64,000 bases of DNA from Mycobacterium dioxanotrophicus (GTDB lineage: Bacteria > Actinomycetota > Actinomycetes > Mycobacteriales > Mycobacteriaceae), in the NCBI RefSeq assembly GCF_002157835.1, contig NZ_CP020809.1, positions 5,890,001-5,954,000 on the forward strand, read 5' to 3'. Below are positions 38,281 to 62,678 of this stretch, piece by piece; the stretch's first letter is position 1, and each line of letters begins with the position of its first letter. Both the position numbers and the translations under genes were made by a program. The notes under the pieces were generated by a model that was not told the DNA's origin, ran no database searches, and was given only the letters and a program-made list of their open reading frames with translations.

Positions 38281-38299
38281 GCGTGAGGTGTGTTGTCGA

Positions 38300-45684: not shown

Positions 45685-45694
45685 TTGTCGACAA
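45685..45694. promoter_or_regulatory. GntR-type operator site 1 (SDR-GMC operon)
   Basis: Perfect palindrome TTGTCGACAA, 62 bases before the SDR start. The extended element ATTGTCGACAAATGCACAAT recurs almost identically at 58881-58900. It fits the TTGTNNACAA type bound by GntR/FCD regulators; the candidate protein is encoded at 48849. Confidence 0.7.
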
Positions 45695-45756
45695 ATGCAC
45701 AATTTGGACGATTCGCCGGAGGAGACCTCCGGCCACGGACAGGAAGAGAGCACCCG

Positions 45757-46515
45757 ATGGGCACACTGTTGTCAGGGAAGACCGTCATCGTCACCGGCGC
45801 CGCACGCGGCATTGGCCTGGCGACGGCCCGCCACCTGTACGAAGAGGGCGCTCAGGTGGTCGCCACCGTCCGTTCGCCGGAGCACCTGCCCCAACTCAAA
45901 GTCGACGACGACCGCCTCGTCGGCCGGGTTGTCGACGTGACCGACGAGCAACAGGTCAAAGACCTCATCGCGTTCACCGTCGACACGTTCGGAAAGCTCG
46001 ACGGCATCGTCAACAACGCGGGCATCCTGATCCCGGGCACCATCCTCGACGCCTCGGTCGAGGACTTCCAGAAGACCTTCGATGTCAACGTCAAAGGTGT
46101 CTTCCTCGGCTCCAAGTACGCGATACCGGAGCTGCTCAAGGCCGGCGGCGGCTCGATCGTGAACTTCGGGTCGATCAATTCCATTGGCGCCGAGAAGCTG
46201 CTGACCACCTACACGGCCAGCAAGGGGGCCGTGCTGACGCTGACCAAGGCGATTGCGCTGGACTTCGGCGCCCAGGGCATCCGTGCCAACACCGTGTGCC
46301 CCGGCTTCGTCGACACCCCGCTCAACGTGCCGCACTACGAGGCGCTCGGCGGCCGGGAAGCACTCGAGGCCGGACTTCCCGATTTCCAGCCGATCGGACG
46401 GGCGATCGAGCCCATCGAGATCGCCCACTCGGTAGCGTTCCTTCTGTCCGATCACTCCACCGCCATCACCGGAACCGCATTCGTCGTCGACGGCGGCGTG
46501 CTCGCGGGCGCATAG
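45757..46515 (+). CDS. SDR-family oxidoreductase
   Basis: 252 residues from ATG 45757 (AGGAAGAG upstream). Classical SDR: TGAARGIGLATARHL, NNAGILIPG, active site S and YTASK, C-terminal GTAFVVDGG. NAD(P)-dependent alcohol or sugar dehydrogenase. It begins the unit SDR-GMC-small subunit and lies behind operator site 1. The 30-base gap to the GMC gene indicates co-transcription. Confidence 0.9.
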   Translation: MGTLLSGKTVIVTGAARGIGLATARHLYEEGAQVVATVRSPEHLPQLKVDDDRLVGRVVDVTDEQQVKDLIAFTVDTFGKLDGIVNNAGILIPGTILDASVEDFQKTFDVNVKGVFLGSKYAIPELLKAGGGSIVNFGSINSIGAEKLLTTYTASKGAVLTLTKAIALDFGAQGIRANTVCPGFVDTPLNVPHYEALGGREALEAGLPDFQPIGRAIEPIEIAHSVAFLLSDHSTAITGTAFVVDGGVLAGA

Positions 46516-46545
46516 GTCACGTCGCACAGGAAGTGAGGCCAGCCA

Positions 46546-48165
46546 ATGACATTCGATAACAAGCCCGTCGACGTGCTGGTGATCGGCGCGGGCCCGTCAG
46601 GTGCGGTGGTCACCCACACGGCCGCCGCTGCGGGATTGAGCGTCGTCTGCCTCGAACAGGGCGACTGGGTCAACCCGAGTGACTTTCCCGCCAACTTCCC
46701 GGAGTGGGAGTTGCTCATCCAACATAATTGGGCGCACGATCCCAACGTCCGCGGTCTGCCGTCGGACTATCCGGTCGACGTCACCGATTCGGACATGTGG
46801 CCGGTCATGTTCAACGGCGTCGGCGGCAGCTCCATCTATTACGGTGCCGAATGGCCCAGGCTGCTGCCGTCGGACTTCCGTGTGAAAACCCTTGACGGCG
46901 TTGCCGATGACTGGCCGATCAGCTACCACGACCTCAAGCCCTATCACGACGAGGTCGATGAGTTCATCGGCGTCTCGGGTGTCGGCGGCGACACCGCCTA
47001 TCCCGACGGCCTGGACTATCCCCTGCCGCCGCACCCGTTGGGAAAACCCGGCATGAAGGCGGCTGCCGCAGCCAACGCGCTCGGCTGGCATTGGTGGCCC
47101 GGCACCAACGCGATCCCGAGCCAGAAGAACAAGACCCTCGAACAGTGCGCCCGCTGGGGCGTCTGCGAGTGGGGCTGTCCGCAGGGAGCGAAAGCCTCGT
47201 TCGACCTCATCTACATGCCGCAGGCGCAGCAGGCCGGCGCCGAGGTCGTCACCGGAGCGCGGGTGTCCAAGGTCGTCACCGACGAGAACGGGCTGGCGAC
47301 CGGCGCCGAGTACATCGACCGGGACGGCACCGTGAGGTTCCAGCCGGCGCGTTCGGTAGTGCTGTGCGCCAACGGCATTGGCACCCCACGGTTGCTGTTG
47401 CTGTCGGCGGATGACCGTCATCCCGAGGGCCTGGCCAATTCGTCGGGCCTGGTCGGCAAGAACCTCATGCTGCATCCGAACTGCACCGCGCTGGGCTACT
47501 ACGAGGAGGATCTCGAAAGCTGGCGCGGCCCGGCCGGTCAGCTGATCCACTCCATGCAGTTCTATGAGACCGACATGTCACGCGGGTTTGTCCGCGGCGC
47601 CAAGTTGCATGCCCTGCCGACCCCCGGCCCGCTCAATGCGATCGAAGCCCACCGCGAACTCGATTTCGACGAGCTGTGGGGTCCGGCCATCCACGACATG
47701 GCCCGCGCGGCCCGCAACGGCATCCTGTGGGCGGCCAACACCGAAGACCTTCCCGAGGAACACAACCGCGTGACGCTGTCGCCGAGCCTGGTGGATTCCG
47801 ACGGACTGCCCGCGCCGAAGGTCGAGTACCGGGTCAGCGAGAACACCCGCAAGCTGCTCAAGTTCACGGTCGAGCAGATGGTCAAGGCCCATGAGGCCGC
47901 CGGTGCCAAACGGGTTATCACCCAAGAACTCTGGGTTGACCAACCGGGCCACCTACTGGGCACCGCCCGCATGGGCGACGACCCCAGGACCTCCGTCGTC
48001 GACTCGTACGGCAAGTGCCACGATGTCGACAATCTCTACATCGCCGACGGGAGCATCTTCGTCACGTCGGGATCGGCCAACCCCACCTGCACCATCACTG
48101 CCCTGGCGCTGCGGGTGGGCAAGAAGGTCGTGGAACAGACGAACGCCAGAAAGGCCATGGCATGA
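46546..48165 (+). CDS. GMC flavoprotein dehydrogenase with Fe-S type cysteine motif
   Basis: 539 residues. FAD fold VDVLVIGAGPSGAVVTHTAA; GMC C-terminus PGHLLGTARMGDDPRTS with catalytic His and SANPTCTITALALRVG. Cys201, Cys207 and Cys211 (CARWGVCEWGC) have the C-x5-C-x3-C spacing that binds the 3Fe-4S cluster in FAD glucose dehydrogenase alpha subunits. With the next gene it resembles the alpha-gamma part of such dehydrogenases; no cytochrome subunit is present. Oxidises an alcohol or sugar. Confidence 0.9.
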   Translation: MTFDNKPVDVLVIGAGPSGAVVTHTAAAAGLSVVCLEQGDWVNPSDFPANFPEWELLIQHNWAHDPNVRGLPSDYPVDVTDSDMWPVMFNGVGGSSIYYGAEWPRLLPSDFRVKTLDGVADDWPISYHDLKPYHDEVDEFIGVSGVGGDTAYPDGLDYPLPPHPLGKPGMKAAAAANALGWHWWPGTNAIPSQKNKTLEQCARWGVCEWGCPQGAKASFDLIYMPQAQQAGAEVVTGARVSKVVTDENGLATGAEYIDRDGTVRFQPARSVVLCANGIGTPRLLLLSADDRHPEGLANSSGLVGKNLMLHPNCTALGYYEEDLESWRGPAGQLIHSMQFYETDMSRGFVRGAKLHALPTPGPLNAIEAHRELDFDELWGPAIHDMARAARNGILWAANTEDLPEEHNRVTLSPSLVDSDGLPAPKVEYRVSENTRKLLKFTVEQMVKAHEAAGAKRVITQELWVDQPGHLLGTARMGDDPRTSVVDSYGKCHDVDNLYIADGSIFVTSGSANPTCTITALALRVGKKVVEQTNARKAMA

Positions 48166-48710
48166 CCCTGCAGTCCGATCAGAGGCGCCTGTCGGTTCCG
48201 CCACGGGCGACCAAGCCACCGCGTCCCCTCACCGACCCCGAGCTCACCACCCTGCTGCGCATCGCCGACACCCTGATCCCCGAATCCGGCCCCAACCCCA
48301 AAGCGAGTGCGGCCGAACAATTTCAGCCTTATCTGCACCTTGCCCTGGCCGCGCGTGCCGACGTATTCGATGCCGTCCTGACGGCCGTGCACGCCCTGGC
48401 CGACGTGCCGGACAGCGAGCTGCGTGGCGCCTTGAAGAAGATGTGGTCCGAGGACAAATTCACCTTCGACCCGCTGTCGTCGGTGATCGCCGGCGCCTAC
48501 TTCATGACTCCACAGGTCAAGAAACTCATCGGCTATCCCGGGCAACATCGCGATCCGGCCGGCCTGGAGGACGCCGCCAACGAGCTGGAGACCGGCATCC
48601 TCGATCCGGTCATCGAGCGCGGGCCGATCTACTTTCGGCCGCCGGAGAGTGAGCGGCCGTGGGCCTTGTCTCCTGGGGCGCCGGCTGCTTCGACGGCTCG
48701 CCGACGGTGA
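48162..48710 (+). CDS. Gluconate 2-dehydrogenase subunit 3-like small subunit, frameshifted C-terminus
   Basis: 182 residues, ATGA-coupled to the GMC gene. PPRPLTDPELTTLLRIADTLIP and later FTFDPLSSVIAGAYFMTPQV match the small (gamma) subunit family that escorts GMC dehydrogenases. The C-terminus ALSPGAPAASTARRR looks wrong: removing one C near 48672 gives ALSLGRRLLRRLADGDIPLI and continues to a stop at 48801. The published families usually end with such a NPIDDIWPQLPYN tail. Confidence 0.78.
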   Translation: MTLQSDQRRLSVPPRATKPPRPLTDPELTTLLRIADTLIPESGPNPKASAAEQFQPYLHLALAARADVFDAVLTAVHALADVPDSELRGALKKMWSEDKFTFDPLSSVIAGAYFMTPQVKKLIGYPGQHRDPAGLEDAANELETGILDPVIERGPIYFRPPESERPWALSPGAPAASTARRR

Positions 48711-48801
48711 CATCCCGCTGATCACCGACGACGCCTGGCTGCCCAACCCCATCGACGACATCTGGCCGCAATTGCCGTACAACGTGGACAGCAGAGCGTG
48801 A
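48666..48801 (+). other. Out-of-frame C-terminal coding tail of the small subunit
   Basis: In the +1 frame this segment reads GRRLLRRLADGDIPLITDD, then AWLPNPIDDIWPQLPYNVDS, stop at 48799-48801, with normal coding character and no start of its own. It is the natural end of the preceding gene displaced by a one-base insertion around TCTCCTGGGG (48670-48678). Confidence 0.65.
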
Positions 48802-48808
48802 AGGACTA

Positions 48809-48818
48809 CTGTCGACAA
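48809..48818. promoter_or_regulatory. GntR-type operator site 2 (gntR autoregulation)
   Basis: CTGTCGACAA, with perfect 8-base core TGTCGACA, 30 bases before the start of the GntR gene. The position suggests autoregulation. Confidence 0.6.
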
Positions 48819-48848
48819 TTGGGCAACATGGTTGGGAGGAGTTACCTG

Positions 48849-49568
48849 ATGGCTGCAGTCCCGCAAGACGGCGCGCTGTCGACGCTGAGTGAGGCAGGCC
48901 GCGACGCGGTGTCGCTGGGGCGGATCACGCAACGCACGACTCCGAGTTCGGTCGCCCAGGTGCTCCGTACCGCGATCCTCGACGGAACCCTCAAACCCGG
49001 CAGCCAGCTCCGCGAAACCCACCTTGCCACCGACCTGGGCGTCAGCCGGGCACCCCTGCGGGAAGCGTTGGGCTTGCTCGCCGAAGAAGGGCTCGTCGAC
49101 AAGATCCCCTATCGCGGCGCGTTCGTCGCCGAGGTCAGCGCCGACGGGATGGCCGAGATCGCCAGTCTCCGCAAGCGTCTCGAACCGTATGCCATCGAGT
49201 TGGCGCTGCCGAGTCTGCGTGGCAGCGCACGGGTGAAGGTGACCCGCGCGCTCGAGGACATGGAGATCGGCGCGGACAACAACGACCCCGCGGCGACCAT
49301 CGACGCGCACATGAGTTTCCACCGCGGATTCTACGAATTGTCCGGCCACAAGCTGCTTTTGGAATTGTGGCGGAGCTGGGAAGCCCAACTGCAACTGTTC
49401 TTCTCGGCCGATCACCAGGCGTTCGCCGATCTGCACGACATGGTCGCCGAACACAAACGACTGCTCAAGATCATCGACTCCGGTGATCTCGAGGCGATCA
49501 CCGCCGAAATCGACCGGCACGTGCACGGCGGCCGGCCCCAAGCCGAAGCGGCCGCCAGGGATGCGTGA
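48849..49568 (+). CDS. GntR-family regulator (FCD subfamily)
   Basis: 239 residues from ATG 48849 behind GGGAGGAG. Winged HTH SSVAQVLRTAILDGTLKPGS, then ETHLATDLGVSRAPLREAL, then an all-helical FCD domain with metal/ligand histidines (HMSFHRGFYELSG, VAEHKRLLKII). Such proteins respond to organic acids, amino acids or sugar acids. Candidate regulator of the palindromes at 45685, 48809, 49777, 58882, 61319 and 62653. Confidence 0.92.
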   Translation: MAAVPQDGALSTLSEAGRDAVSLGRITQRTTPSSVAQVLRTAILDGTLKPGSQLRETHLATDLGVSRAPLREALGLLAEEGLVDKIPYRGAFVAEVSADGMAEIASLRKRLEPYAIELALPSLRGSARVKVTRALEDMEIGADNNDPAATIDAHMSFHRGFYELSGHKLLLELWRSWEAQLQLFFSADHQAFADLHDMVAEHKRLLKIIDSGDLEAITAEIDRHVHGGRPQAEAAARDA

Positions 49569-49776
49569 AGCGTCGGCGCTCTGAGCCGACCAGCCGGCTT
49601 CAGCTGATCGTGCCGAAACGCCTGCGGCACAAGCTGATCGACCCCCGCCGCGGTGGCGCGTGCCGCTGCCGGTCCACCACAGGTCGCGCCCGATCCTCAG
49701 CCGACCGCGACCTGCGACACATCACGGGAACCTAGCCAGAAATAGTGATTGCGGTCACCTTCTCCGACGTGTAGAT

Positions 49777-49786
49777 TGTCGACAGT
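49777..49786. promoter_or_regulatory. GntR-type operator site 3 (permease-ALDH operon)
   Basis: TTGTCGACAG with the 8-base palindromic core TGTCGACA, 80 bases before the permease start at 49867. Confidence 0.6.
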
Positions 49787-49866
49787 AGTACAAAAAAAGG
49801 ATCGTGCGACAGCCGTCATCCGTTCCGCCGCCACATCCCCCGCTTATTGAAAACATTGAGGTCACC

Positions 49867-51339
49867 ATGGCGATTACCCCCGAGGAGTCTGGCGTGTTCC
49901 ACCGTCGACCTCCGTCCACTCCGGCAGTCGACGCCGACGCCGCCTACCTGGAGAAGCTCGGCTACAAGCAGGAGCTCAACCGCAGCCTGGGACTGTTCTC
50001 GGCGTTCGGCGTGCAGTTCACCTCGATCGCCATCGCCTCGGGCATCTTCACCACCCTGGTCGTCGGCATCGGCTTCTTCGGGCCCGCCGCCTTCTGGTCG
50101 TTCCTCGTCGGCGGCGCATTGCAGGTCTTCACCGTCGGGCTCGCCGTGGCCATGCTGGTGTCGTCCTACCCGCTGGCCGGCGGCGTGTACCAGATCACCG
50201 GGCGCATCACCGGCAAACCGTGGCTGGCCTGGCAGACCGGCTGGTGGCTGCTGATCGCGCACACCGTCGCCGTCACCGCCTGCTCGGTGAGCATCGCCCC
50301 GTTCATCGCAGGCTGGTTCGGTGTGACGTTCGAGAATGCGGTCGACGCGCTGCCCTGGACGTTGGGGCTGATCGTGCTGGCCACGATCATCAACATCGCC
50401 GGCGTCAAAGTTGCTGCGCTGCTGAACAATATCGGTGTCGTCGCCGAGTGCATATGCGTATTCGGCCTCATCGGCGTACTGGTGTTCTTCAAGCACCCGA
50501 CCCAGCCGTTGGCCTTCCTCACCGATTCCGGCGGCACCGCCACCGGCGGCCACTGGTTCGTCCCGTTCCTCTTCGCGATGATCCTGCCCGCCTATGCCAT
50601 TTCGTCCTTCGACGCGACCGGAAACGCCTCCGAAGAGACCAAGAACGCCGCGTTGAAAGCACCGCTGGCATCCGTACTGGCCAACGTGTCGTCCTACGTC
50701 GTCGGCGTCGTCATGGTGGGCATGCTGATGCTGGCCATCCAGGACCTGCCCGCCATCATGGGCAGTGCCCTGCCGGTCAAAGACATCCTCGACACCGCAG
50801 TCGGCTCAGCCTTCGCGAACGTCTTCGAGGCGGTGGCGATCGTCGCCCTGTTCGCCGCGGTGGTCATGTTGCAGCTCACCGGTATTCGCGTGCTGTGGTC
50901 GCAAGCCCGCGACGGCCAGATTCCCGCGGCGTCGTGGATGCGCAAGGTCAGCAAGCAACGCATCCCCATCAACGCGACGCTGACCATCTTCGCACTGTCG
51001 GTCGTCTTCGCCCTGTGGTCCTCGCTGCTGTCGGTGCTGACCGCCATGACTGCGCTGGCGTGGGGCCTGGCCTACGGCGTCGTCGTCACCGTCGGCCTCT
51101 ACGCCCTGCTCAAGAAGAAGCTACCCAAACACCCTTGGCATTACGGCAAATTGAGCCCGGTGATCTTTGTCCTCGCGATCGCATGGTCGGCCGTCCTGTG
51201 CACCCTGCTGGTCTACTCCGATCCGATCCACGTCGGACTGGGCATGGTGATGGTGATCGGGGCCGGCGCAGTGATCTATCTGACCATCCCGAAGAGCCGC
51301 CGCGGCAAGTCCATCGATACGCAAACCGGCCACCTCTGA
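49867..51339 (+). CDS. APC-family amino acid/amine permease
   Basis: 490 residues from ATG 49867. About 12 hydrophobic helices; YLEKLGYKQELNRSLGLFSAFGVQFTSIA, in pieces, is typical of the amino acid/choline transporter (ACT/GabP-UGA4) branch of APC, as is SFDATGNASEETKNA. Likely imports an amino acid or amine by cation symport. It is the first gene of the permease-ALDH unit. A longer frame starts at 49804 but lacks similarity. Confidence 0.9.
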   Translation: MAITPEESGVFHRRPPSTPAVDADAAYLEKLGYKQELNRSLGLFSAFGVQFTSIAIASGIFTTLVVGIGFFGPAAFWSFLVGGALQVFTVGLAVAMLVSSYPLAGGVYQITGRITGKPWLAWQTGWWLLIAHTVAVTACSVSIAPFIAGWFGVTFENAVDALPWTLGLIVLATIINIAGVKVAALLNNIGVVAECICVFGLIGVLVFFKHPTQPLAFLTDSGGTATGGHWFVPFLFAMILPAYAISSFDATGNASEETKNAALKAPLASVLANVSSYVVGVVMVGMLMLAIQDLPAIMGSALPVKDILDTAVGSAFANVFEAVAIVALFAAVVMLQLTGIRVLWSQARDGQIPAASWMRKVSKQRIPINATLTIFALSVVFALWSSLLSVLTAMTALAWGLAYGVVVTVGLYALLKKKLPKHPWHYGKLSPVIFVLAIAWSAVLCTLLVYSDPIHVGLGMVMVIGAGAVIYLTIPKSRRGKSIDTQTGHL

Positions 51340-51367
51340 TCCGCACAGAACCGAAAGGCACGCTGCC

Positions 51368-52798
51368 ATGACCATCTCCGTCGCGAACCTCATTGACGGC
51401 AAGACACTTCCCGGCTCCTCCGACCAGACCCGCCAGGTGCTCAATCCGTCGACCGGTGAGGTCATCGCCGAGATGACCGAGTCCACCGTCGACGACGCCG
51501 ACCGCGCCGTCGCCGCGGCCCGCGCAGCGTTTCCCGCCTGGGCGGCACGCACTCCGGGCGCCCGATCCGAACTGCTGCATCAACTGGTCCAGATCCTCGA
51601 GGACAACATCGACGAATTGGCCCGGCTTGAGACGATCGACGCTGGCAAACCGACCACGGCGGCACGGGGCGTGGAACTACCCGGCATCGCCGGCGCCCTG
51701 CGCCACTTCGCCGGTGCCGCACGGGTTCTCACCGGCCAAGCTGCCAGCGAGTTCGTCGAGAACAACACCACTTACACCCGCCGCGAACCGCTCGGTGTCG
51801 TGCTGGGCATCACGCCGTGGAATTTCCCGCTGTGGCAGGCGGTGTGGAAGCTCGGGCCCGCGCTGGCGGCGGGCAACACCGTGGTCATCAAACCGGCCGA
51901 ACTGACGCCGTTGGCCACCATTCGCTTCGCTGAACTGGCCCAGGAGGTGCTTCCACCCGGCGTGCTCAACATCGTCCATGGATCGGGAGGCGTGATCGGC
52001 GATGCGCTTGTGCGCCATCCTGACGTGAGCCTGGTGTCGTTCACCGGTTCGACCGCGGCGGGCCGCAAGATCGCCGCCGCAGCAGGCGGCACCCCCAAGC
52101 GACTCGTGCTCGAACTGGGCGGCAACGCACCGGTGATCATCTACGACGACGTCGATCTGGAGGTCGCGCTGCCCATCCTGACCAACGGCGTCCTCTTCAA
52201 CGCCGGCCAGGAATGCATGTCGGCGACCCGGATGCTGGTCAGCGAGAAGATCCACGACACCTTCGTCGCAGCACTGGCTGATCAACTTCAGGCCGTCGCC
52301 GTCGGGGACGCCTCAGACCCGAACACAGTTCTCGGACCGCTCATCTCGCAGATCCAGCGCGATCGGGTGGTGGGGCTGGTGGACGGCCGTTCCGCCGGCG
52401 CCGAGCTCGTCACCGGTGGCCACGCCCTCGACCGGCCGGGCTTCTTCTTCGAGCCCACCCTGATCACCGGCGTCGGCCAAGACGACGATCTGGTGCAGCA
52501 GGAGATCTTCGGACCGGTTGCCACCGTGCAGACGTTCACCGACGAAGCCGATGCGATCGCCAAGGCCAACGCTGTCGAACAAGGGCTCGCCGCCTCGGTG
52601 TGGACCCGCGATATCGGCCGAGCATTGCGCAATGTCAACGCAATTGAAGCCGGCGTGGTGTGGGTCAACAACCACATGGCCGTCGGCCCGGAAGGTCCGC
52701 TCGGCGGGTTCAAGGGTTCGGGCTACGGCAAAGAAGGCGGCACCGCGGGACTGGAGGAATTCACCCGCACCAAGCAGGTCATCCTGAGCCTGTCATGA
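51368..52798 (+). CDS. Aldehyde dehydrogenase (aminobutyraldehyde/betaine-aldehyde type)
   Basis: 476 residues. NAD-ALDH landmarks: TPWNFPLWQ, SFTGSTAAG, catalytic Glu249 (LELGGNAP) and Cys283 (FNAGQECMS). Closest in style to gamma-aminobutyraldehyde or 2-oxoglutarate-semialdehyde dehydrogenases, which fit either amine or hydroxyproline breakdown. Follows the permease by 28 bases and is coupled to the next gene (ATGA). Confidence 0.92.
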   Translation: MTISVANLIDGKTLPGSSDQTRQVLNPSTGEVIAEMTESTVDDADRAVAAARAAFPAWAARTPGARSELLHQLVQILEDNIDELARLETIDAGKPTTAARGVELPGIAGALRHFAGAARVLTGQAASEFVENNTTYTRREPLGVVLGITPWNFPLWQAVWKLGPALAAGNTVVIKPAELTPLATIRFAELAQEVLPPGVLNIVHGSGGVIGDALVRHPDVSLVSFTGSTAAGRKIAAAAGGTPKRLVLELGGNAPVIIYDDVDLEVALPILTNGVLFNAGQECMSATRMLVSEKIHDTFVAALADQLQAVAVGDASDPNTVLGPLISQIQRDRVVGLVDGRSAGAELVTGGHALDRPGFFFEPTLITGVGQDDDLVQQEIFGPVATVQTFTDEADAIAKANAVEQGLAASVWTRDIGRALRNVNAIEAGVVWVNNHMAVGPEGPLGGFKGSGYGKEGGTAGLEEFTRTKQVILSLS

Positions 52799-53052: not shown

Positions 53053-53084
53053 AGCCTGTTTCAACGCGAGGGGAGTGAGACGAA

Positions 53085-54422: not shown

Positions 54423-56664
54423 GCAATCCGTCCACCAGCAGCGACATGCCATGGTGGGCGGGCATTTCGATGGCGAAGCTGTGCAGGTCGTCGACCGTGG
54501 CCAAGGGCTTGCCGGTGAACATGTCCGACACCGACGCGCCAGGTGGCAGCGCTTCCGAGCGCACGGTGCCCGCGATCTCCTCGTTGGCGAAGTTGAGCAC
54601 CGTGAGCTGATGGTCACCGCTCGCGAGTTCGTGGACGAGCACCAGCATGCCGCGATGGGAGACCTCGGGGATGTCGACCTGACGGCTGGTGGCGATCTCG
54701 TAATGCTTGCGCACCCGCAGAATGGCCTGCAGCTGCCGCAGGAAACTGGTCTCGTCGGCCAGCTGCTCCGGGATTGACCCGTAAAGGCTTCTTCCCCTTG
54801 GCATCCCGGCGATCGACCGGGTCGCCGTCGGGTTGTGCCCCATCAGGTCGTGTGCGGCACGGTGAATCCACCGCGTGTCGCCGCCGTGCAGCAGCTCCTC
54901 GACGTCGGTGCGCGGCAGCGTCAGCATCCCGCACATGTCCCAGCCCGACAGCGCGAACACGCCTGGTTGCAACGCATTGAACATCGCCAGCAGTAGGTGC
55001 GCCCGCCGGATCCGGTCCAGGGACACCCCGTCGCTTCGCTCGCCCCCGGCGTCCTCGATGTCGTCGAGATCGGTAACGCCCAGCGTCGCGGCGATGACGG
55101 TCGCCGTGGTGCAGGCGATGCCGTTGGTGGTGAAAACCAGGTTGTACGGGGCGTTCTCACCGGTGAGCTTCTCGGTGAGATCGCCACGCACGATATCGCC
55201 TAGGGCTTCCCCGGTGACCTCCTCGCCCCGAAAGGTGTAGACGTCGTCGCGGTGACCCGTCGACCAGTGGACGAGTTCGTAGGTCAGCTCGTCGTGGTTC
55301 TGCAACGCATGCACCAACGATGCCGGCTCCACACCGAGTTCGAGGGTGGTACGCAGCGTCAACCGCAGGAACTCGGTGTCGGCGGTAGCCAACGCGTGCT
55401 GGTAGGCCGGGCGGTTGATGAAGTCGTAGGACAGGTCAGCACCGGCCTCCCCGATCTCCCGGATGTCGTCGATGGTCAGGTTCAGCTCCTGGAAGGTGAA
55501 CCCACCGACCTTGCGGACCATGCTGGCGATCAGGTGGTTGGCCGCCTCCGACAGCGGGTGTCCCTCCGACCAGGCGGTGCTGTCCTCGGCCGCGGTCTTC
55601 TCCGCGCCCAGAAAGCCATTGGCGTCCAAGCGAAGTCCCCCGGTGCCCAGATCTGCCAGCGAATGCAGCGCATCGCCGATCACCAGCCGCATACCCGCGA
55701 ACGACGGGTCCAGCCAGTTGATGGACGGCTGCCCGTCCTTGAAGTAGTGCAGATAAACCCAGCGCCGCTCGACGCCGTCGATGCCCATCACCGGGCGGGT
55801 AACGCTCCAGTTGGTCTCTTTGACGCCCTCGGCGTAGAAGATCACCCGCTGCAGCCGCCCGATGATGTAGCCGGCCTTGTCGAGCCAGTCCTCGGTGACG
55901 GTGTCGATGTTGACCGAATCGTGCCCGGCCGGGACCTCGGGCAGGTGGTCCCAGTCCAGCGGATCGACCTCGACCATGTGGTAGATGCCGGGATAGTCGG
56001 CGTACTTCATCTCGGCCAACCGGAAATCCGCGCCCTTGCCGGTGTGCCCGGGCACGATGTCGTCGATGATGGTGCCGCCGTACCAATTGGCCGTGCCGCA
56101 CATCTGCCGGAACTCTTCCTCGGTCCCGAAGGCTGGGTCGATCTGAGTGCTGATCCGGTCGAAGTGCCCGTCGACACTGGGCGTCAACTGCCAACCCGAG
56201 ATGCCGCCCGCCCGTTTGACCGGGCCCGTGTGGATCGCGTCGACGCCGATCTCGGCGAACGCCTTCCACATGTCCTCGTCGGCCATGGCCTTGAGAAACG
56301 ACTCCCCCGGCCGGGTGATCAGCGAAAGCGGATACGCAGTGAACCACACCGCCGCGGTGTCCACGGCACCCCTGGGACTGGGCGTGGCATAGGGGTTCTG
56401 CCACATCGAGCCCTGGCCCGAGAACTGCTGGCTGATCTCGTTGGCATCGGCCAGCATCGACTGACTCAGCAGCCAGGACACATACGCCGGGTTGTCCCCG
56501 GTGGCGGGCCCGTCCTGCGCCACCGACCGACGGACGAACGGCGATTTGACCCGGGGGCGAAACCGCAACGCCCGAGGCCGCGCGGGGTGCAAATGTTCGT
56601 CGAAAGTGATTTCGGTCGGCTCGTTGGTCTGGTCGTCGGGTTCCGGCTCTGCCACCTCAGACAT
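54394..56664 (-). CDS. GH13 alpha-amylase-family enzyme (trehalose-synthase-like)
   Basis: 756 residues from ATG 56664. GH13 regions: DIVPGHTG (region I), GLRLDANGF with the nucleophile Asp (II), FQELNL with the acid/base Glu (III) and ALQNHDE (IV). The C-terminal beta domain ([15 protein letters not shown]) is typical. It likely acts on maltose/trehalose-type alpha-glucosides; exact activity is uncertain. No secretion signal, so cytoplasmic. It follows the racemase-family gene by 126 bases. Confidence 0.82.
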
Positions 56665-56790
56665 GCATCCCCTCTCCGGACTTGGACGGGTCGTGGCTTC
56701 CAGCCTAAGCATCCCGCGCCGAATTCGACGAAAATGCCGCTGAGCGCGCCTCGACACGACACTCTCGTCGATTCGGGGCAGGTCGCGCGG

Positions 56791-57819
56791 TCACACCGGC
56801 CAGGTGTCGGAGAGCTTGTAGCCCGTGGGGAAAGGATCGGCCGGGTCGAGCCCGACCTGACTGATCTCGGTGATGTAGGCCTGGCCGCTGATCCGCGGGA
56901 TGACGGCGTCATAGGGCCCGACAGTGCTCATGCGGTCGATGCGGGCGCCGAACTTCGAGCCGATCACCGACTCGTGGATGAACGGCTCGCCGACATTGAT
57001 CAGACCCTGGGCCTTGAGCACCGCGAGTCGGGCCGAGGTCCCGGTGCCGCATGGTGAGCGGTCGAGGCGTCCGGGCGAGACGACGACGGCGTTGCGCGAC
57101 GTGAGCGCTCCGTCGGCACGGCCGAGCGGGCCGACGAACTCCGTCTGGGTGATGCCCGCGAACTCGGGGTTCTCCGGATGGGTCACCGGGATCTGTTCAG
57201 CAGCAGCGGTTTTCACGCGCTGGCCGAGGTCGCACAGATCGCTGGCCTCGTCGGGGGTCAACTGCAGGCCCAGCTCCTGCGCCGAGGCCAGCACATACGC
57301 CATGCCGCCCCAGGCCACATCGACGGTCAGGGTCGGATAGCCCTCCAGCTCCAGCGGCGCGGCCAATCGATAGGCGAACGCGGGCTGGTTCTCGAACTCG
57401 ACGCTGGTCACCTTGCCGTCCTGACAGGTGCAGCGGATGCGGATGAGCCCGGCGGGCGCCTCGAGGACGACGTCGGTGACCGGTTCGGTCATGCGGATCA
57501 TCCCGGTTTCCAGCAGTGCGGTGGTGACGCAGATGGTGTTGGAGCCCGACATCGCCGGATACTCTGTGGATTCGGCGATCACATAGCCCAGCTGAGCTTC
57601 TGGATCCGTCGCCGGCACAACGTAATTGACGCAATGCGTGACGGCGCCGCGGGGTTCGTGCAGCAGCAGCTGGCGCAGGTCGTCATCGTGATCGCGGAAG
57701 AATTTCATCTTCTCGAACACCGTGGCGCCAGGCACGTCGCCGATACCGCCGGTGACGACGTTGTTGATCTCACCGCCGACATGGCACTTCACCACATTGA
57801 CCATCCGACTCCAGCGCAT
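56791..57819 (-). CDS. Proline racemase superfamily, probable 4-hydroxyproline 2-epimerase
   Basis: 342 residues; GAGGAGG precedes the ATG. The two catalytic positions are Ser91 (AMSGSNT) and Cys257 (SPCGTGT). The superfamily uses Cys/Cys, Ser/Cys (racemases, epimerases) or Cys/Thr (3-hydroxyproline dehydratase); Ser/Cys favours an epimerase. It would convert trans-4-hydroxy-L-proline to the cis-4-hydroxy-D form. The neighbouring DapA-family gene supports this pathway. Confidence 0.82.
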   Translation of the reverse strand: MRWSRMVNVVKCHVGGEINNVVTGGIGDVPGATVFEKMKFFRDHDDDLRQLLLHEPRGAVTHCVNYVVPATDPEAQLGYVIAESTEYPAMSGSNTICVTTALLETGMIRMTEPVTDVVLEAPAGLIRIRCTCQDGKVTSVEFENQPAFAYRLAAPLELEGYPTLTVDVAWGGMAYVLASAQELGLQLTPDEASDLCDLGQRVKTAAAEQIPVTHPENPEFAGITQTEFVGPLGRADGALTSRNAVVVSPGRLDRSPCGTGTSARLAVLKAQGLINVGEPFIHESVIGSKFGARIDRMSTVGPYDAVIPRISGQAYITEISQVGLDPADPFPTGYKLSDTWPV

Positions 57820-57845
57820 GCGTCCTCCTCGGCTCGGCGCGCTCG

Positions 57846-57885
57846 CGTCGCCAGGGCCGCGGTTGCAGCCACGACCCTGGCGACG
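57846..57885 (-). terminator. Intercistronic hairpin between DapA-family and racemase-family genes
   Basis: CGTCGCCAGGG and CCCTGGCGACG are perfect 11-base inverted arms around an 18-base GC-rich loop, 17 bases after the dapA-like stop. No T-tract follows, so it may be a partial terminator or mRNA-stabilising element setting the ratio of the two genes. Confidence 0.6.
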
Positions 57886-57902
57886 CCTCCCGAAACAGAA
57901 CG

Positions 57903-58796
57903 TTAGGCGTAGTTGAGTCCGGTCTCGGCGACCAGCTTGCGCAATTCGTCGAGCTTTTCGGGCTCGAGCTCGCCGTAGGGTGCGCGGGGACTGCCCAGAT
58001 CGATACCAACGGCCTGTGCGACCGCCTTGGTCGACACGGCGTAGCCTTCTTTACCCAGGAAGTCGAACACGTTCCACAGCCGCTTGAAGACCGCCAAGGC
58101 CTCGGCAGTCTTGCCTTCCTTGGCCAGTTCGAAGATGGCGACACATTCCTTCGGCGCGAAATTCGGTGCGCCCCAAATAGACCCGGCGGCGCCGGCAGAG
58201 AACGCCGGCAGCACGATGGTGTCCCAGCCGACGAAGGTGTCGATGGCATCGCCGAGATTGAAGATCAGGTCGAACGCCTGCTCGATGGACCCCGAGGTGT
58301 CCTTGATGTACTTCACCGCGTCGGTGCGCTCCAGCAGCTCGCGATAGAACGGCCGGTCCAGGTTCATGCCGGTGACGCCCGGCAGGTTGTACGCGATCAC
58401 CGGGATGCCTGCCGATTCACCGACGGTGGCGAAGTACTCGATGACCTCGCGACGGGTCGGCGCTTCATAGAACGGCTGCACCAGCAACACCGCGTCGGCC
58501 CCGGCGGCGGCCGCGTGCTTGGACAACTCGATCGCATCGGCGGTCCGCGTCGAACCCGTCTGCGGCGCAACAGGAACCCGGCCCGCGGCCTGCTCGATGA
58601 CGACCTCGTTGACCCGCTTGCGCTCGTCGAGCGTCAGCGCCGCGAACTCACCGGTGCTGCCGCCGGGCACCAGGCCGTGCAGACCGTTGTCGATCAGGAA
58701 GTCGACATGGGACCGCAGCCGGCTCTCGTCGACCTCACCATCGGCACCGAACGGGGTGGATACCGCGGCAAGGATGCCGCCGAGCTTCTTGGTCAT
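57903..58796 (-). CDS. DapA-family lyase/deaminase (hydroxyproline-pathway type)
   Basis: 297 residues from ATG 58796. Class-I aldolase-like TIM barrel: GGSTGEFAALT, Tyr136 (AYNLPG) and Schiff-base Lys165 (YIKDTSG). Family members include dihydrodipicolinate synthase and 1-pyrroline-4-hydroxy-2-carboxylate deaminase; the racemase neighbour favours the latter, giving 2-oxoglutarate semialdehyde. A frame open to 58931 covers the operator and is not preferred. Confidence 0.85.
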   Translation of the reverse strand: MTKKLGGILAAVSTPFGADGEVDESRLRSHVDFLIDNGLHGLVPGGSTGEFAALTLDERKRVNEVVIEQAAGRVPVAPQTGSTRTADAIELSKHAAAAGADAVLLVQPFYEAPTRREVIEYFATVGESAGIPVIAYNLPGVTGMNLDRPFYRELLERTDAVKYIKDTSGSIEQAFDLIFNLGDAIDTFVGWDTIVLPAFSAGAAGSIWGAPNFAPKECVAIFELAKEGKTAEALAVFKRLWNVFDFLGKEGYAVSTKAVAQAVGIDLGSPRAPYGELEPEKLDELRKLVAETGLNYA

Positions 58797-58881
58797 TGTG
58801 TGTCCTTCGTATTGGGAACGGTCTTCGTGACCGTGAATCGTCCGAGCGAACCGCTCGTGATCAGCATAGCGAGATTGCTGA

Positions 58882-58891
58882 TTGTCGACAA
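58882..58891. promoter_or_regulatory. GntR-type operator site 4 (DapA-racemase operon)
   Basis: Perfect TTGTCGACAA, 85 bases before the DapA-family start. The surrounding ATTGTCGACAAGTGCACAAT matches site 1 at 19 of 20 positions, including the downstream TGCACAAT. Confidence 0.7.
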
Positions 58892-58930
58892 GTGCACAAT
58901 CAACTTCGTTTTTCAGAAGGCGGTCACTCA

Positions 58931-59734
58931 TCAGAACCGGACCGCATCGACAAACTTGCGTAGTTCTTCATTCTCAGTTTGCGAGAAACCCGTTGCAGGA
59001 GAGCCGGCGAAGGCGATTCGGCCCGCGTCAAAGAACATCAAGCGGTCTGCGGCCTTCGCCGCAAAGGCCATGTCATGCGTAACCAGCGCGATGCTGATCC
59101 CCTCGTCGCGCTTCAGTCGGCTCAGGACGCCGAGCACTTCCGCCGCCACGGGCGGATCGAGCGCCGAGGTGATCTCGTCACACAACAGGAGCCTCGGCCG
59201 CATCATGAGTGCACGAGCAATTGCGACGCGCTGTCGCTGCCCACCAGACAATTGGTGCGGTTTGGCCGAAATGAAGCCGCTCATGCCGACCTCGTCGAGC
59301 GCTTGCTCGGCCTGAGCGCGTAACTTCTTCTTCCCCCACTTGTGCACAATCCGCGGGGCGAATGTCAGGTTGGTCAACACGTTCATGTGCGGCCAGAGCG
59401 TGTAGGACTGGAAGATCATTCCGATCGTGGACTGGGCTTGGCTCCACTGCTCGGTGTATTCGCCATCCTCGAGCACCCGCTGGCCGTCGAAATCCATTGT
59501 CCCGGAATCAGCCTCGGTGAGACCGGCGACAACCCGCAGTAGCGTGCTCTTACCGGACCCGCTTCGGCCGATTACCACGGTGATCTCGCTCCTGTGAAAG
59601 TCAAGGCTCACATCGTCGAGAACCCTTGCCGCACCGAATTCTTTACAGACATTACGAACTCTCACAAGCGGGTCATCGTGTCCGGCGCGGACATCTCGTA
59701 CAGAGTCGGCCGTCGCACTTGTCGAAATGTTCAT
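58931..59734 (-). CDS. Amino acid ABC transporter ATP-binding protein
   Basis: 267 residues. Walker A GRSGSGKST, Q-loop IFQSYTLWPH, signature LSGGQRQR, Walker B LLLCDEITSALD, H-loop THD. Belongs to the polar amino acid uptake group (GlnQ/HisP). Overlaps the permease gene (ATGA). Last gene of the binding protein-permease-ATPase unit. Confidence 0.94.
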   Translation of the reverse strand: MNISTSATADSVRDVRAGHDDPLVRVRNVCKEFGAARVLDDVSLDFHRSEITVVIGRSGSGKSTLLRVVAGLTEADSGTMDFDGQRVLEDGEYTEQWSQAQSTIGMIFQSYTLWPHMNVLTNLTFAPRIVHKWGKKKLRAQAEQALDEVGMSGFISAKPHQLSGGQRQRVAIARALMMRPRLLLCDEITSALDPPVAAEVLGVLSRLKRDEGISIALVTHDMAFAAKAADRLMFFDAGRIAFAGSPATGFSQTENEELRKFVDAVRF

Positions 59735-60435
59735 GCCGCCACCGCCTGTTTTGTCCGCTTGGACGCTGATTCGTTAAGACGTTGCTGGCCACGTCTTTCC
59801 AGATAGCTCACCAGTAGGGAGAGCGGAAATGCGACCACGAAGTACACCAGGGCTGCCCCAGTCAAAATCTCCAGTGATCGGTACGTCTGCGCGGCGGCAG
59901 TGTTGGCGGCGAACATCAAATCGACGACACCGATGACCGAAACCAAGGCCGTGTCCTTGAATCCGTTGATTGCAATCGACAGCAACGCAGGCAACTGCTG
60001 GCGCAAGGTCTGCGGAACGATGATCGATGCGACCTGGTGGTACCGGTCGACTTGAAGTACCTTGGCCGCCTCCAACTGTTCGGCAGGAACCGACTGAAAG
60101 CCGGCCCGATACACCTCTGCTACTTGCGCAGTCAGATTGGCGCTGATTGCGATGACAGCAGCCGTAAAGCCAGAGAGGCTGATGTCCAACAGGATCGGCA
60201 GTGCATAGAACATCCAGAACAATTGGATCAACACAGGCGTGCACCGGAAGAGCTCAATGTAGCCCTGGGCGATCCATCTGATGAGATCGAACTCGGCCAT
60301 GCGCGCCAGCGCGACGGGCACCGCGGCCACCGCACTGATGATGATGACAAGCAGGGTGATGGCCAGGCTTGTTTTCAGCCCTGTGAGCAGATTTGGGAGA
60401 ACCTCCCACACAATGCCCCAGTCAGTCTTCCCCAC
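59731..60435 (-). CDS. Amino acid ABC transporter permease
   Basis: 234 residues with about five membrane helices and the HisM/GlnP motif around YIELFRCTPVLIQLFWMFY and the EAA loop EQLEAAKVLQVDRYHQVASI. Imports a polar amino acid with the flanking binding protein and ATPase. One base separates it from the binding-protein stop. Confidence 0.93.
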   Translation of the reverse strand: MGKTDWGIVWEVLPNLLTGLKTSLAITLLVIIISAVAAVPVALARMAEFDLIRWIAQGYIELFRCTPVLIQLFWMFYALPILLDISLSGFTAAVIAISANLTAQVAEVYRAGFQSVPAEQLEAAKVLQVDRYHQVASIIVPQTLRQQLPALLSIAINGFKDTALVSVIGVVDLMFAANTAAAQTYRSLEILTGAALVYFVVAFPLSLLVSYLERRGQQRLNESASKRTKQAVAA

Positions 60436-60436
60436 G

Positions 60437-61279
60437 TCACGCGCCCATCTTCAGCGGGCCGAGGTTGGCGACACTGATGTAGCCGACCTTTTCGAACGCG
60501 CGATCGCGCTCACCAGAAGCGATTGACTCCCGAATCGCAACGTTGAGCATCTGCAGCGAGTGCACGTCGATTTCTTCGCTCACACCGTATGAGACCGGCG
60601 CCATCCACATCGGCGTCTCTGGCACCACGATGGCGAGACCGGAATCGGACCGAACCTGCCCCAGCGCAGTGCCGTAATCCGTGAACTGCCCGGGCGCCCT
60701 GCCTGCTTTGACGGCTTGGATGGCATTTGTCCACGAGTCGACGCTGAGCGTCGCGAATCCGGCGGCTTTTGCCGCTGCCTCATGCGCCGAACCTTGCGAA
60801 GAGGCCACCGGCTGACCGGTTTTCATGATGTCCGCGGTGCTCGTGAGGCCACTGTCACGCCTGACCACCCAAACTCCGTTGTCCTCGTAGTACGGGTCGG
60901 TGTACATGATTGTCAGCGACCTCTCGCCGGTGATATCCAAGCCCGCGGCCATGTCGTATTTGTTGGCCTTGAGGCCCGCCACGATGGTGTTCCAGGACGC
61001 CGGAACCGGGGTGAACTTGACCCCCAGATTCTTGGCAAAGGCTTCGAGCGGCAGGAGCACCGGACCGGTCCAGGTGCCATTCCGCTCTTCGAGCATGGGT
61101 GCGAAAGCTGCTACTCCTACGCGGAGTTCGCCTCGGTTCTTAACCTCTTCAGCCCAACTGCCTTGCGAGGCGGCTCCTGCTGTCCCGCCAGCACTCAGTT
61201 TGCCGCCGAGAAGTCCCGCCACGACGGCGACTACCACCAAGGCCAGGATTCCCAGGGATTGCTTCGTCGACTTCTTCAC
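60437..61279 (-). CDS. Amino acid ABC transporter substrate-binding protein
   Basis: 280 residues from GTG 61279 with AAAGGAG in front. N-terminal KKSTKQSLGILALVVVAVVAGLLGG is a signal/anchor without lipobox. Family-3 binding protein features: NRGELRVGVAAFAPMLEERN, SWNTIVAGLKANKYDMAAGLDITGER, YTDPYYED, in pieces. It captures a polar or imino amino acid for import. Confidence 0.9.
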   Translation of the reverse strand: MKKSTKQSLGILALVVVAVVAGLLGGKLSAGGTAGAASQGSWAEEVKNRGELRVGVAAFAPMLEERNGTWTGPVLLPLEAFAKNLGVKFTPVPASWNTIVAGLKANKYDMAAGLDITGERSLTIMYTDPYYEDNGVWVVRRDSGLTSTADIMKTGQPVASSQGSAHEAAAKAAGFATLSVDSWTNAIQAVKAGRAPGQFTDYGTALGQVRSDSGLAIVVPETPMWMAPVSYGVSEEIDVHSLQMLNVAIRESIASGERDRAFEKVGYISVANLGPLKMGA

Positions 61280-61318
61280 AAATCGCTCCTTTGGTGAAGT
61301 CACAACTCCATTGTTGTA

Positions 61319-61328
61319 TTGTCGACTG
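61319..61328. promoter_or_regulatory. GntR-type operator site 5 (ABC transporter operon)
   Basis: TTGTCGACTG, 8 of 10 matches to the palindrome with the GTCGAC core, 39 bases before the binding-protein start. Confidence 0.55.
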
Positions 61329-61366
61329 TATACATGTGGTGTGGACCACTTCAAGGCTTTCGCGAT

Positions 61367-62113
61367 CTATCCGCGCCAACCCAGACACGCCTCAGCAACC
61401 AACGCCGCGACCCGGCGGTGCGCGACATCGTTCGGGATGTCGTGATGGCCGCCGCGGATCGGCACCGCCCGCCCGCGTCGAAGTTCGGCGGCAAATTCGG
61501 CGGCCTTGCGCGGTGGCGCGAAGACGTCGTGCTCGCCGTTGATCAACAGGACCGGGATGTCGAGCGCCCCCAGTTCTCGCCGCACGTCATATCCGGCGGT
61601 TTCCAGCGCGCGCCAGAGATTCGGCTCGGACTGCGCCGTGTCGAATCCCAGCGGGTCGTTTTCCAGTGCGTCCAGGTAAGCCTCGTCGGCGGACATGACG
61701 AGGTCGTGTTCGCCACGTTCCGGCAGACCCCACAGCGGCGCACCCGTCATCACCAGACCGACTGCAGCCGACGGCTTTTCGAGAACCAGCAGCGCACCGG
61801 TCACCGCGCCGAGGGAATGCCCGACGATCACCACCGGCAGTCGGCGGGCCGCCATCACACCGAGCAGCACCGCGGCGTTCGACGCCAGGTCACCGACCGA
61901 TGCGAACATCCCGGCCGGTCCCCCGGTATGGCCGTGACCGATGTGGTCGGTGCCCCAGACGTCGAGTCCCACGGCATTGAGCTGGCCGGCGAGACGGTGA
62001 TAGTGCCCCGTGTGCTCGCCGAAACCGTGCAGCAGCAGGACCTGGGCCCTGGGCGCCTCGGCATCCCAGTGTCGGTAGTAGAACCGGCCGCGTTCGCCCT
62101 CGAGAAACGGCAT
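61367..62113 (-). CDS. Alpha/beta hydrolase (monoacylglycerol-lipase-like)
   Basis: 248 residues. LLLHGFGEHTGHYHRLA (oxyanion HG), WGTDHIGHGHTGG, nucleophile GHSLGA, acid LLINGEHDVF and C-terminal His in RGGHHDIPND. Hydrolyses an ester or lactone; a sugar-acid lactone from the GMC dehydrogenase is one possibility. It follows the RbsD-like gene by one base, forming an operon. No signal peptide. Confidence 0.88.
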   Translation of the reverse strand: MPFLEGERGRFYYRHWDAEAPRAQVLLLHGFGEHTGHYHRLAGQLNAVGLDVWGTDHIGHGHTGGPAGMFASVGDLASNAAVLLGVMAARRLPVVIVGHSLGAVTGALLVLEKPSAAVGLVMTGAPLWGLPERGEHDLVMSADEAYLDALENDPLGFDTAQSEPNLWRALETAGYDVRRELGALDIPVLLINGEHDVFAPPRKAAEFAAELRRGRAVPIRGGHHDIPNDVAHRRVAALVAEACLGWRG

Positions 62114-62114
62114 G

Positions 62115-62600
62115 TCACGCCTCGCCGAGCTCGGCGAACCAGGTCGAGGAGGTCAGCCACGCCAAAGGGATCGGCGGGCTCGGGTAACCCGCCACCAGCA
62201 CCACATTGCCGTGCACCGCATAGTCGCCGGTCTGAATGAAGACCTTCGCCCGGTCACGCAGTCGGTAAAAGTTTGGGAGATAACGTAATTCATGCACGCT
62301 GGCGTCGCCCACAAGGTCCGAGACTCTTCGGCGTCCCGACGGGTTGACCGTCGCCATCTCCTCGGTGACGATCGCCGCCTCGAAGTCGCCGACCTCCCAC
62401 AGCACCGAGACGAGATCGGCGACGGTGGGCAGACCGGGCGCGATGCCCACGTCGATCACCTCGACCGCTCCCGACAGCGGTACCAGACTGGCCGGCGACG
62501 TGCCGCTGCCCGCATCGGCGACGACGACCATCTCGCCGTGCCGAAGCTGACTCACCACGGCGGCCAAGCGTTCGTGCAGAAGCCGGACTTTCGTTGCCAT
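62115..62600 (-). CDS. RbsD/FucU-like sugar-pyranase family protein
   Basis: 161 residues from ATG 62600. HGEMVVVADAGSGTSPASLV and VEVIDVGIAPGLPTVADLVS follow the RbsD/FucU mutarotase pattern (Asp-Ala-Gly and the ligand-contacting strand), with a C-terminal IQTGDYAVHGNVVLVAGYP. RbsD proteins interconvert sugar anomers or pyranose/furanose forms. The similarity is moderate. It shares a divergent promoter with the MHS transporter. Confidence 0.72.
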   Translation of the reverse strand: MATKVRLLHERLAAVVSQLRHGEMVVVADAGSGTSPASLVPLSGAVEVIDVGIAPGLPTVADLVSVLWEVGDFEAAIVTEEMATVNPSGRRRVSDLVGDASVHELRYLPNFYRLRDRAKVFIQTGDYAVHGNVVLVAGYPSPPIPLAWLTSSTWFAELGEA

Positions 62601-62652
62601 CGACTCTCCCCTTCTCGGTGATGGGTTGTGAGGTGGAGCACTCTGCGCTATT

Positions 62653-62678
62653 TTGTCGACAGGTCGACAATCGACAAT
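62653..62678. promoter_or_regulatory. GntR-type operator site 6, overlapping tandem half-sites
   Basis: TTGTCGACAG (62653-62662), AGGTCGACAA (62661-62670) and AATCGACAAT (62669-62678) overlap in series between the RbsD-like and MHS genes. Three GTCGAC/TCGACA cores in 26 bases suggest more than one bound dimer controlling both directions. Confidence 0.6.

Follow-up and report, generated by a model that had tools for sequence, protein, structure and literature searches.

A conserved palindromic operator and a probable GntR/FCD regulon in Mycobacterium dioxanotrophicus

Genes and operator copies at the locus

The stretch analysed here, 64,000 nucleotides of the 8.08 Mb genome of Mycobacterium dioxanotrophicus (G000:C1:5890001-5954000; hereafter the window, to whose numbering bare positions refer), contains a gene for a GntR/FCD regulator of the FadR subfamily, neighbouring enzyme and transporter genes, and six copies of a palindrome that an initial annotation, made from the sequence alone, had read as the mark of a single regulon. 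The regulator gene (48849-49568, forward strand) lies mid-locus as that annotation stated, and its product, the probable reader of the sites, matches above the cut-off both the GntR winged helix-turn-helix domain (wHTH; PF00392, 61.4 bits) and the C-terminal FCD domain (PF07729, 75.9 bits), which places it in the FadR/FCD subfamily. On the same strand, it is preceded by the genes of an SDR oxidoreductase (45757-46515; PF13561/PF00106), a GMC flavoprotein dehydrogenase (46546-48165), whose closest solved relatives are flavin adenine dinucleotide (FAD)-dependent glucose and fructose dehydrogenases, and a small protein (48162-48710) without a Pfam or NCBIfam match, which adjoins the GMC gene wherever the latter is found in the compared loci and may be a GMC small subunit. 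It is followed by an APC-type amino acid permease (49864-51339; PF13520) and an aldehyde dehydrogenase (ALDH; 51368-52798) that is aminobutyraldehyde/betaine-aldehyde-like at scores below the curated cut-off.

The reverse strand carries a member of the proline racemase superfamily (56791-57819), nearest to trans-3-hydroxyproline dehydratase and with a Ser91/Cys257 dyad, a DHDPS-family lyase recognized by family match (57903-58796), the ATPase (58931-59734; PF00005), permease (59731-60435; PF00528) and family 3 solute-binding protein (60437-61279; PF00497; start uncertain, 61279-61306) of an ABC transporter, an alpha/beta hydrolase (61367-62113; PF12146) and an RbsD/FucU-family protein (62115-62600; PF05025). 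Divergent from the latter, an MFS transporter of MHS type (62692-64000, forward strand; PF07690/PF00083) continues beyond the window end. The LysM-esterase and GH13 genes within the interval look like bystanders and were rejected as regulon members, as no site precedes them and they were not found in the L122 stretch (L and G numbers denote compared loci and genomes).

All six sites proposed earlier are real, but a pattern scan of the window finds the exact core, TTGTCGACAA, only at 45685 and 58882, the others carrying one or two mismatches. Operator 1 (45685-45703, forward strand) joins the exact core to an extra box, TGCACAAT, before the SDR-GMC genes; operator 2 (48809-48818, forward strand) is CTGTCGACAA in the gntR promoter, where it putatively serves autoregulation; operator 3 (49776-49785, forward strand; given one base later, as 49777, in the initial annotation) precedes the permease-ALDH genes and reads TTGTCGACAG. 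Operator 4 (58882-58900, reverse strand) has the exact core with boxes on both sides before the DHDPS-racemase genes, and operator 5 (61319-61328, reverse strand) is TTGTCGACTG, two mismatches from the core. Operator 6 (62653-62678), in the divergent promoter, is a compound site, TTGTCGACAGGTCGACAATCGACAAT, which begins with the same one-mismatch core as operator 3, contains three TCGACA repeats and partially resembles the operator of a sister FCD group (GTCGACAATCGACAAT). By arithmetic, the sites lie 62 (SDR), 30 (gntR), 78 (permease), 85 (DHDPS) and 52 (RbsD) bases from the likely starts, 12-39 from that of the ABC binding protein, whose start codon is uncertain, and 21-27 from that of the MHS transporter when counted from 62670. 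The shared extension reported earlier, TTGTCGACAA[A/G]TGCACAAT, is indeed present at 45685 and at 58882; relative to their genes, however, these copies point in opposite directions.

Cores with at most one mismatch number 11 in the window against 1.52 expected, a count reached by none of 100 shuffles. Five of the 11 are sites of the initial annotation, which left the other six unmentioned; two of these are intragenic in the same locus (48023 in the GMC gene, 49093 in gntR), and the remaining four are found in other parts of the window (5868, 12132, 13246 and 38293).

Conservation, architecture and rarity of the operator

Conservation was assessed over 20 loci with the regulator clade, the window included, in which the regulator is 43% to 97% identical to that of the window; its nearest relatives are those of Mycobacterium sp. 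852013 (97%), M. aquaticum (96%) and M. brisbanense (94%). Several genomes contribute two or three loci, the L060 and L122 stretches overlap on what is probably one contig, which gives one exact site a double count, and some loci are incomplete, with L069 having none of the enzymes and L114 no GMC gene. These loci hold 46 exact sites, where 0 to 0.05 are expected per locus (20 resamples each); 35 are situated at most 300 bp upstream of a member of the gene set (DHDPS 14, APC permease 8, SDR 8, GMC 2, gntR 2 and ALDH 1) and none lies inside a tested gene. The sites precede the same genes even where the regulator is only about 45% identical and the gene order is shuffled, so that the comparison with related mycobacteria suggested earlier finds them conserved upstream of the same genes where the gntR clade is present. 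For example, the core of operator 1 is kept in L058, L059, L062 and L122, operator 4 in L059, L062, L068, L122 and L142-L145, and the divergent RbsD/MHS operator in the M. aquaticum-like L142, and in L145 as two separate sites. The ABC transporter has no match in L142, L143 or L145 and, together with site 61319 (58931-61328), therefore looks like a recent addition.

Four loci without a local gntR (L121, L124, L125 and L126; 15-20 kb each) contain no exact site and four one-mismatch matches, though they hold related racemase and DHDPS genes and, in three cases, also ALDH and GMC genes. Two of them come from genomes with the regulator elsewhere (G041 and G151), and the genomes of the other two (G284 and G347) have no regulator match at E≤1e-30. 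The regulator locus L123 also has no exact site, but shows TTGTCTACAA or TTGTTGACAA forms, in which the outer TTGT..ACAA is thus retained while the centre varies. Among 396 Mycobacterium genomes, the gntR clade (E≤1e-30) is found in 15 and a strong racemase (E≤1e-130) in 16, with 14 in common; G353 has the regulator without a strong racemase, and G284 and G347 the reverse. At class level, the racemase is matched (E≤1e-110) in one of 394 genomes, which is M. dioxanotrophicus itself, and so offers no outside locus for comparison. Homologues of gntR with one in-frame stop were seen at G191:C21:677594-678229 and G273:C1:1571684-1572328.

Sixty-six sites, drawn from 18 of the 20 loci, were aligned: 58 have no more than one mismatch and are located no further than 300 bp upstream of a tested gene, and eight (61319 and seven in relatives) were added manually. 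The alignment reveals the form TTGT-CG-ACAA and a second box downstream of the core, with A at +16 in 63 of the 66 sites and C at +15 in half; the aligned sites are partly kin by descent, and sites before other than tested genes are omitted. A weaker, mirror-image box lies upstream (T, G and G at -7 to -5 in 56-65%). Fifteen of the sites, in 14 of the 18 aligned loci, precede gntR genes themselves, mostly in one-mismatch form. The possibility that this box is a -10 promoter element was rejected by comparison with the -10 consensus, as the T that should directly precede the conserved A occurs in only 5% of the 66 sites. FadR-subfamily operators, in the part of the published account used here (PMC4494728, Suvorova et al. 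2015), are TKGT/ACMA palindromes with 2-3 nucleotides between GT and AC, the spacer being two nucleotides in several groups, and have weaker extra half-sites 7-12 nucleotides off centre. The spacing and the extra boxes of the present sites match these rules, so that the TGCACAAT extension is best read as an extra half-site box. The local regulators of this subfamily described there (HypR, MdcY, PrpR and UxuR groups; PMC4494728) are likewise alike in their wHTH and FCD domains, the two-nucleotide spacer, the extra half-site 7-12 nucleotides from the centre and the inclusion of the regulator gene among the targets, whereas the core found here is TTGTCGACAA and the A of its extra box nearly invariant.

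The exact core occurs seven times in the genome, against three for a reversed-pattern control. Of the five copies outside the locus, four fall within open frames by a simple filter and were dropped as extra targets; the remaining copy is L130. The genome-wide count with one mismatch, which the initial annotation had offered as a check, proved unspecific (301 sites against 199 for the control), and the one-mismatch decamer was abandoned as a regulon marker. A longer form, TTGTCGACNNGTNNACAA, matches the genome with zero or one mismatch only at 58882, 62653 and 45685, with 49776 among 16 places showing two mismatches; since this pattern was composed after inspecting the window sites, only the absence of other matches is informative. 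As a single long palindrome it fitted those three sites, but it was discarded in favour of a core with an extra box because relatives retain just the decamer and one downstream box. As an independent test, a matrix of 29 columns was built with 49 upstream sites that come from more distant relatives, excluding the window and its 94-97% identical relatives. Scanned over both strands of the window, it places its 13 best strand-wise matches all at the six places (27.2 to 14.3). Operator 5 has an extended score of 25.0 on the forward and 21.9 on the reverse strand, and the weakest place by its better strand is the compound site (62653/62661, 18.0). The top-scoring place outside the locus is TTGTCGACTA at 38293 (13.8), and the best score in 96.6 kb of other sequence from the same genome, mostly stretches picked for partial matches or exact decamers, is 11.4.

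Some observations weigh against a single regulon marked by this core. Eleven of the 46 exact sites are not upstream of tested genes, and several of these precede other genes, such as those of luciferase-like monooxygenases or ABC transporters; the 61 one-mismatch matches in the 20 loci lie upstream of the set in 26 cases, elsewhere in 19 and inside genes in 16, so that the one-mismatch form is common within genes as well as in the genome at large. Against this stand the upstream conservation, the four gntR-less loci without exact sites and the RbsD/MHS site of two relatives; the single-regulon reading thus withstands most of the refuting conditions set in the initial annotation, and we consider one regulon over these genes likely and, on sequence grounds, well supported. 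A site spotted by eye in raw sequence has become a conserved operator, with a testable regulator, a target list and an extra box. Operator copies before luciferase-like monooxygenase genes at L066:2308 (one mismatch), L067:6495 and L115:4416 suggest a further regulon member there, and another operator copy lies at L116:4605.

Enzymes of the set and the candidate substrate

The racemase-like protein has trans-3-hydroxyproline dehydratase as its best model (427.3 bits, under the NCBIfam cut-off of 550) and a 3-hydroxyproline dehydratase (PDB identifier 4k7g) as its best solved match, with which it shares the first catalytic residue, Ser91, and the SGSN motif. It falls short of all 4-hydroxyproline epimerase cut-offs (NF010578, 226.1/376; NF052296, 157.1/450; NF010577, 105.5/442 bits). 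The DHDPS-type enzyme and the ALDH are family matches, neither of which reaches a specific model, and no separate DAO-type oxidase is present among the 18 window proteins tested, the GMC protein matching PF01266 solely over its first FAD-binding stretch (9-41). Two relatives hold other enzymes of dehydratase type. L061 has a racemase and, among the genes behind its permease site, also an enolase that scores best as cis-3-hydroxyproline dehydratase (281.7/500). The L120 stretch, which has no racemase, carries an aconitase X with the same best model, divided into a swivel gene and a large-part gene and flanked on either side by an exact operator copy (L120:6391-8063); the pair scores 353.3 and 96.6 bits, where the 700-bit cut-off was made for a fused protein. 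On these matches, a hydroxylated proline-type imino acid is a tentative substrate class, in which doubt slightly outweighs confidence. Since all scores lie below the NCBIfam cut-offs, a 3-hydroxy- or 3,4-dihydroxyproline-like substrate is advanced as a hypothesis.

From sequence, we infer DNA binding, repression, the substrate and each reaction step as follows. The regulator would control, besides its own gene, five promoters, namely those of the SDR-GMC-small protein genes, the permease-ALDH genes, the DHDPS-racemase genes, the ABC transporter and the divergent RbsD-hydrolase/MHS pair, and the enzymes would most likely degrade a hydroxylated cyclic imino acid. Dehydration (or epimerisation) of a 3-hydroxyproline-type compound may fall to the racemase-like enzyme; were there an additional 4-hydroxyl on this compound, the reaction would yield 4-hydroxy-pyrroline-2-carboxylate, from which deamination by the DHDPS-family enzyme could form 2-oxoglutarate semialdehyde, a substrate for the ALDH. 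Such a passage from 3,4-dihydroxyproline to 2-oxoglutarate without an amino acid oxidase would explain why no separate one is found among the 18 window proteins tested. Read jointly, these elements would form a mycobacterial catabolic regulon serving imino acids of 3,4-dihydroxyproline type. Removal of the 3-hydroxyl would bypass the epimerase and the D-amino acid oxidase, unrelated dehydratases (the racemase-like one, accompanied by an enolase in one relative and replaced by an aconitase X in another) would share the step under one GntR operator, and the GMC/SDR pair would provide a side-branch or entry step for other, related hydroxylated compounds. Taken with all its parts, this scheme is quite unlikely; were it true, it would describe a hydroxylated-proline route needing no amino acid oxidase and a single regulator that tracks swaps of unrelated enzymes for one reaction.

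Several points count against the hydroxylated-proline proposal. The racemase-like protein has Cys257 at the second catalytic place, not the Thr of solved dehydratases such as 4k7g, and its Ser/Cys dyad is that of a 4-hydroxyproline epimerase; in the part of Zhao et al. 2014 used here (PMC4113996), a 3-hydroxyproline dehydratase has Ser/Thr and a 4-hydroxyproline epimerase Ser/Cys, while an excerpt of Watanabe et al. 2016 (PMC5144071) reports a bifunctional dehydratase/2-epimerase, PA1255. No enzyme of the set reaches a curated NCBIfam cut-off, and the models closer to the ALDH are those for aminobutyraldehyde, not those for ketoglutarate-semialdehyde. That the L120 aconitase X is split, as reported for mevalonate 5-phosphate dehydratase in archaea (PMC8184944, in part), speaks against a simple reading. 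In the portion of PMC5144071 drawn on here, an aconitase X acts weakly, about 300-fold less, on a 3,4-dihydroxyproline. A DAO-domain or amine-oxidase gene lies in the loci of two relatives (L070:5635-7062 and L069:8251-9708), so that the oxidase step of the known pathway may be present in some of the loci. The GMC, SDR, RbsD and hydrolase proteins have no clear role in the dihydroxyproline scheme, which also leaves unaccounted for the glycerol-kinase-like and DAO-domain genes of L060 and L070. In L070 (4364-8490), genes for a glycerol-kinase-like protein, a DAO-domain protein that includes a BFD-type [2Fe-2S] part and a pyridine-nucleotide oxidoreductase come after the regulated ALDH gene, and a gene string judged similar from its sequence starts lies at L060:16507-19368.

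Another compound, for example a sugar- or polyol-like amine, with the racemase-like enzyme repurposed, would suit the GMC protein, which is the most conserved enzyme (81-84%) in the seven GMC-holding loci with about 45% regulator identity, and the other sugar-type families of the loci, namely SDR and RbsD/FucU and, in relatives, an FGGY kinase and an ALO-type oxidase. The content of the regulated loci, with an amino acid permease, an ABC transporter of polar amino acid type and enzymes of hydroxyproline-dehydratase type, argues otherwise, and we regard this alternative as somewhat unlikely. The classical trans-4-hydroxyproline pathway is in our view unlikely. The racemase-like protein would then be a 4-hydroxyproline epimerase, followed by an unusual oxidase (GMC, or ALO-/DAO-type in relatives), the DHDPS-type deaminase and the ALDH; the deaminase of the known pathway belongs to the DHDPS family, and a DAO-type gene adjoins the regulated ALDH gene in L070. 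The dyad is as in the Ser93/Cys236 epimerase of Agrobacterium vitis (PMC4113996, in part), and the known route, as far as the cited part of PMC5144071 describes it, ends with a deaminase and a ketoglutarate-semialdehyde dehydrogenase. However, this pathway is at odds with the lack of a separate DAO-type oxidase among the 18 window proteins tested, with GMC relatives that are sugar dehydrogenases, with epimerase models that score under the dehydratase model, and with the dehydratase-type enolase or aconitase X of two relatives.

HypR of Streptomyces coelicolor is likewise an FCD regulator of an actinobacterial hydroxyproline-type gene set, but its operator, CTNTGC(A/C)ATGTCAC in the part of the report cited (PMC6608401), differs from TTGTCGACAA, which does not favour orthology (the proteins were left uncompared), and its operon includes a DAO-type D-hydroxyproline dehydrogenase subunit that has no counterpart as a separate protein among the window proteins tested. 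The lhp clusters, in the available part of PMC5144071, similarly combine racemase-like, aconitase X or enolase dehydratases with a transporter, a regulator and a terminal deaminase and ALDH; unlike them, the window has a GMC/SDR pair, no separate DAO-type dehydrogenase, and NCBIfam scores below cut-off. In open-access literature, this target set was not found, nothing fitting turned up for sets of GMC, proline racemase and GntR or for mycobacterial hydroxyproline catabolism, and no such regulon appeared by title among the matches listed for TTGTCGACAA as a literal string. The earlier proposal of one compound degraded by an undescribed pathway is plausible; the regulator is of known type, the regulon appears real from its sequence conservation, and the pathway is a good hypothesis.

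The reader of the sites and its sister regulators

The 48849-49568 protein probably reads the sites. It would be a local regulator, most likely a repressor, as the sites sit close to start codons, binding TTGT-CG-ACAA and a weaker box about 11.5 bp from its centre. In stretches of about 3.6 kb around the regulator, the exact core is present in 11 of the 20 clade loci. Against this assignment, among 26 genomes that have only more distant FCD regulators, 2 show an exact and 14 a one-mismatch core near the best homologue, and an almost identical palindrome marks the loci of sister FCD regulators (35-39% identity), so that the core alone cannot name the regulator. In the wHTH domain, the distant regulators resemble the window protein about as closely (51-59%) as the 45% clade members do (56-59%), but in the FCD domain they do not (26-34% against 39-44%). 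Recognition of the sites by a different FCD regulator, or by several of which the 48849 protein is merely one, would be in keeping with the palindrome of the sister clades and with 25-27 genome matches to GntR-type queries at E≤0.001; we consider it very unlikely, given the lack of exact sites in the four loci without a local gntR, two of them from genomes with the regulator elsewhere, and a search of the genome with one sister regulator, whose best match was the window protein (39%, the next being 34%), so that no competing close sister was found. Chance or promoter-element resemblance, which the many one-mismatch cores might suggest, is extremely improbable in view of the rarity of the exact core, the matrix ranking of the six places, the predominance of upstream sites, the retained RbsD/MHS operator and the conservation across rearranged loci, which is strong counter-evidence.

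The palindrome at the sister loci indicates that it belongs to a wider FCD group. Of the 26 loci, 12 were inspected, and CTGTCGACAATCGACAG was present in eight, beside an amidase-type or cysteine-hydrolase-type gene; we take the amidase-type gene to be an allophanate hydrolase, and the name cysteine-hydrolase-type is presumed likewise. The sister FCD group, in mycobacteria and one other family of the order, probably has a separate conserved regulon. In L033, L034, L035, L037, L039, L041, L051 and L056, the motif or its complement lies between the sister regulator and the amidase- or cysteine-hydrolase-type gene, and L038 has the same arrangement with one base changed.

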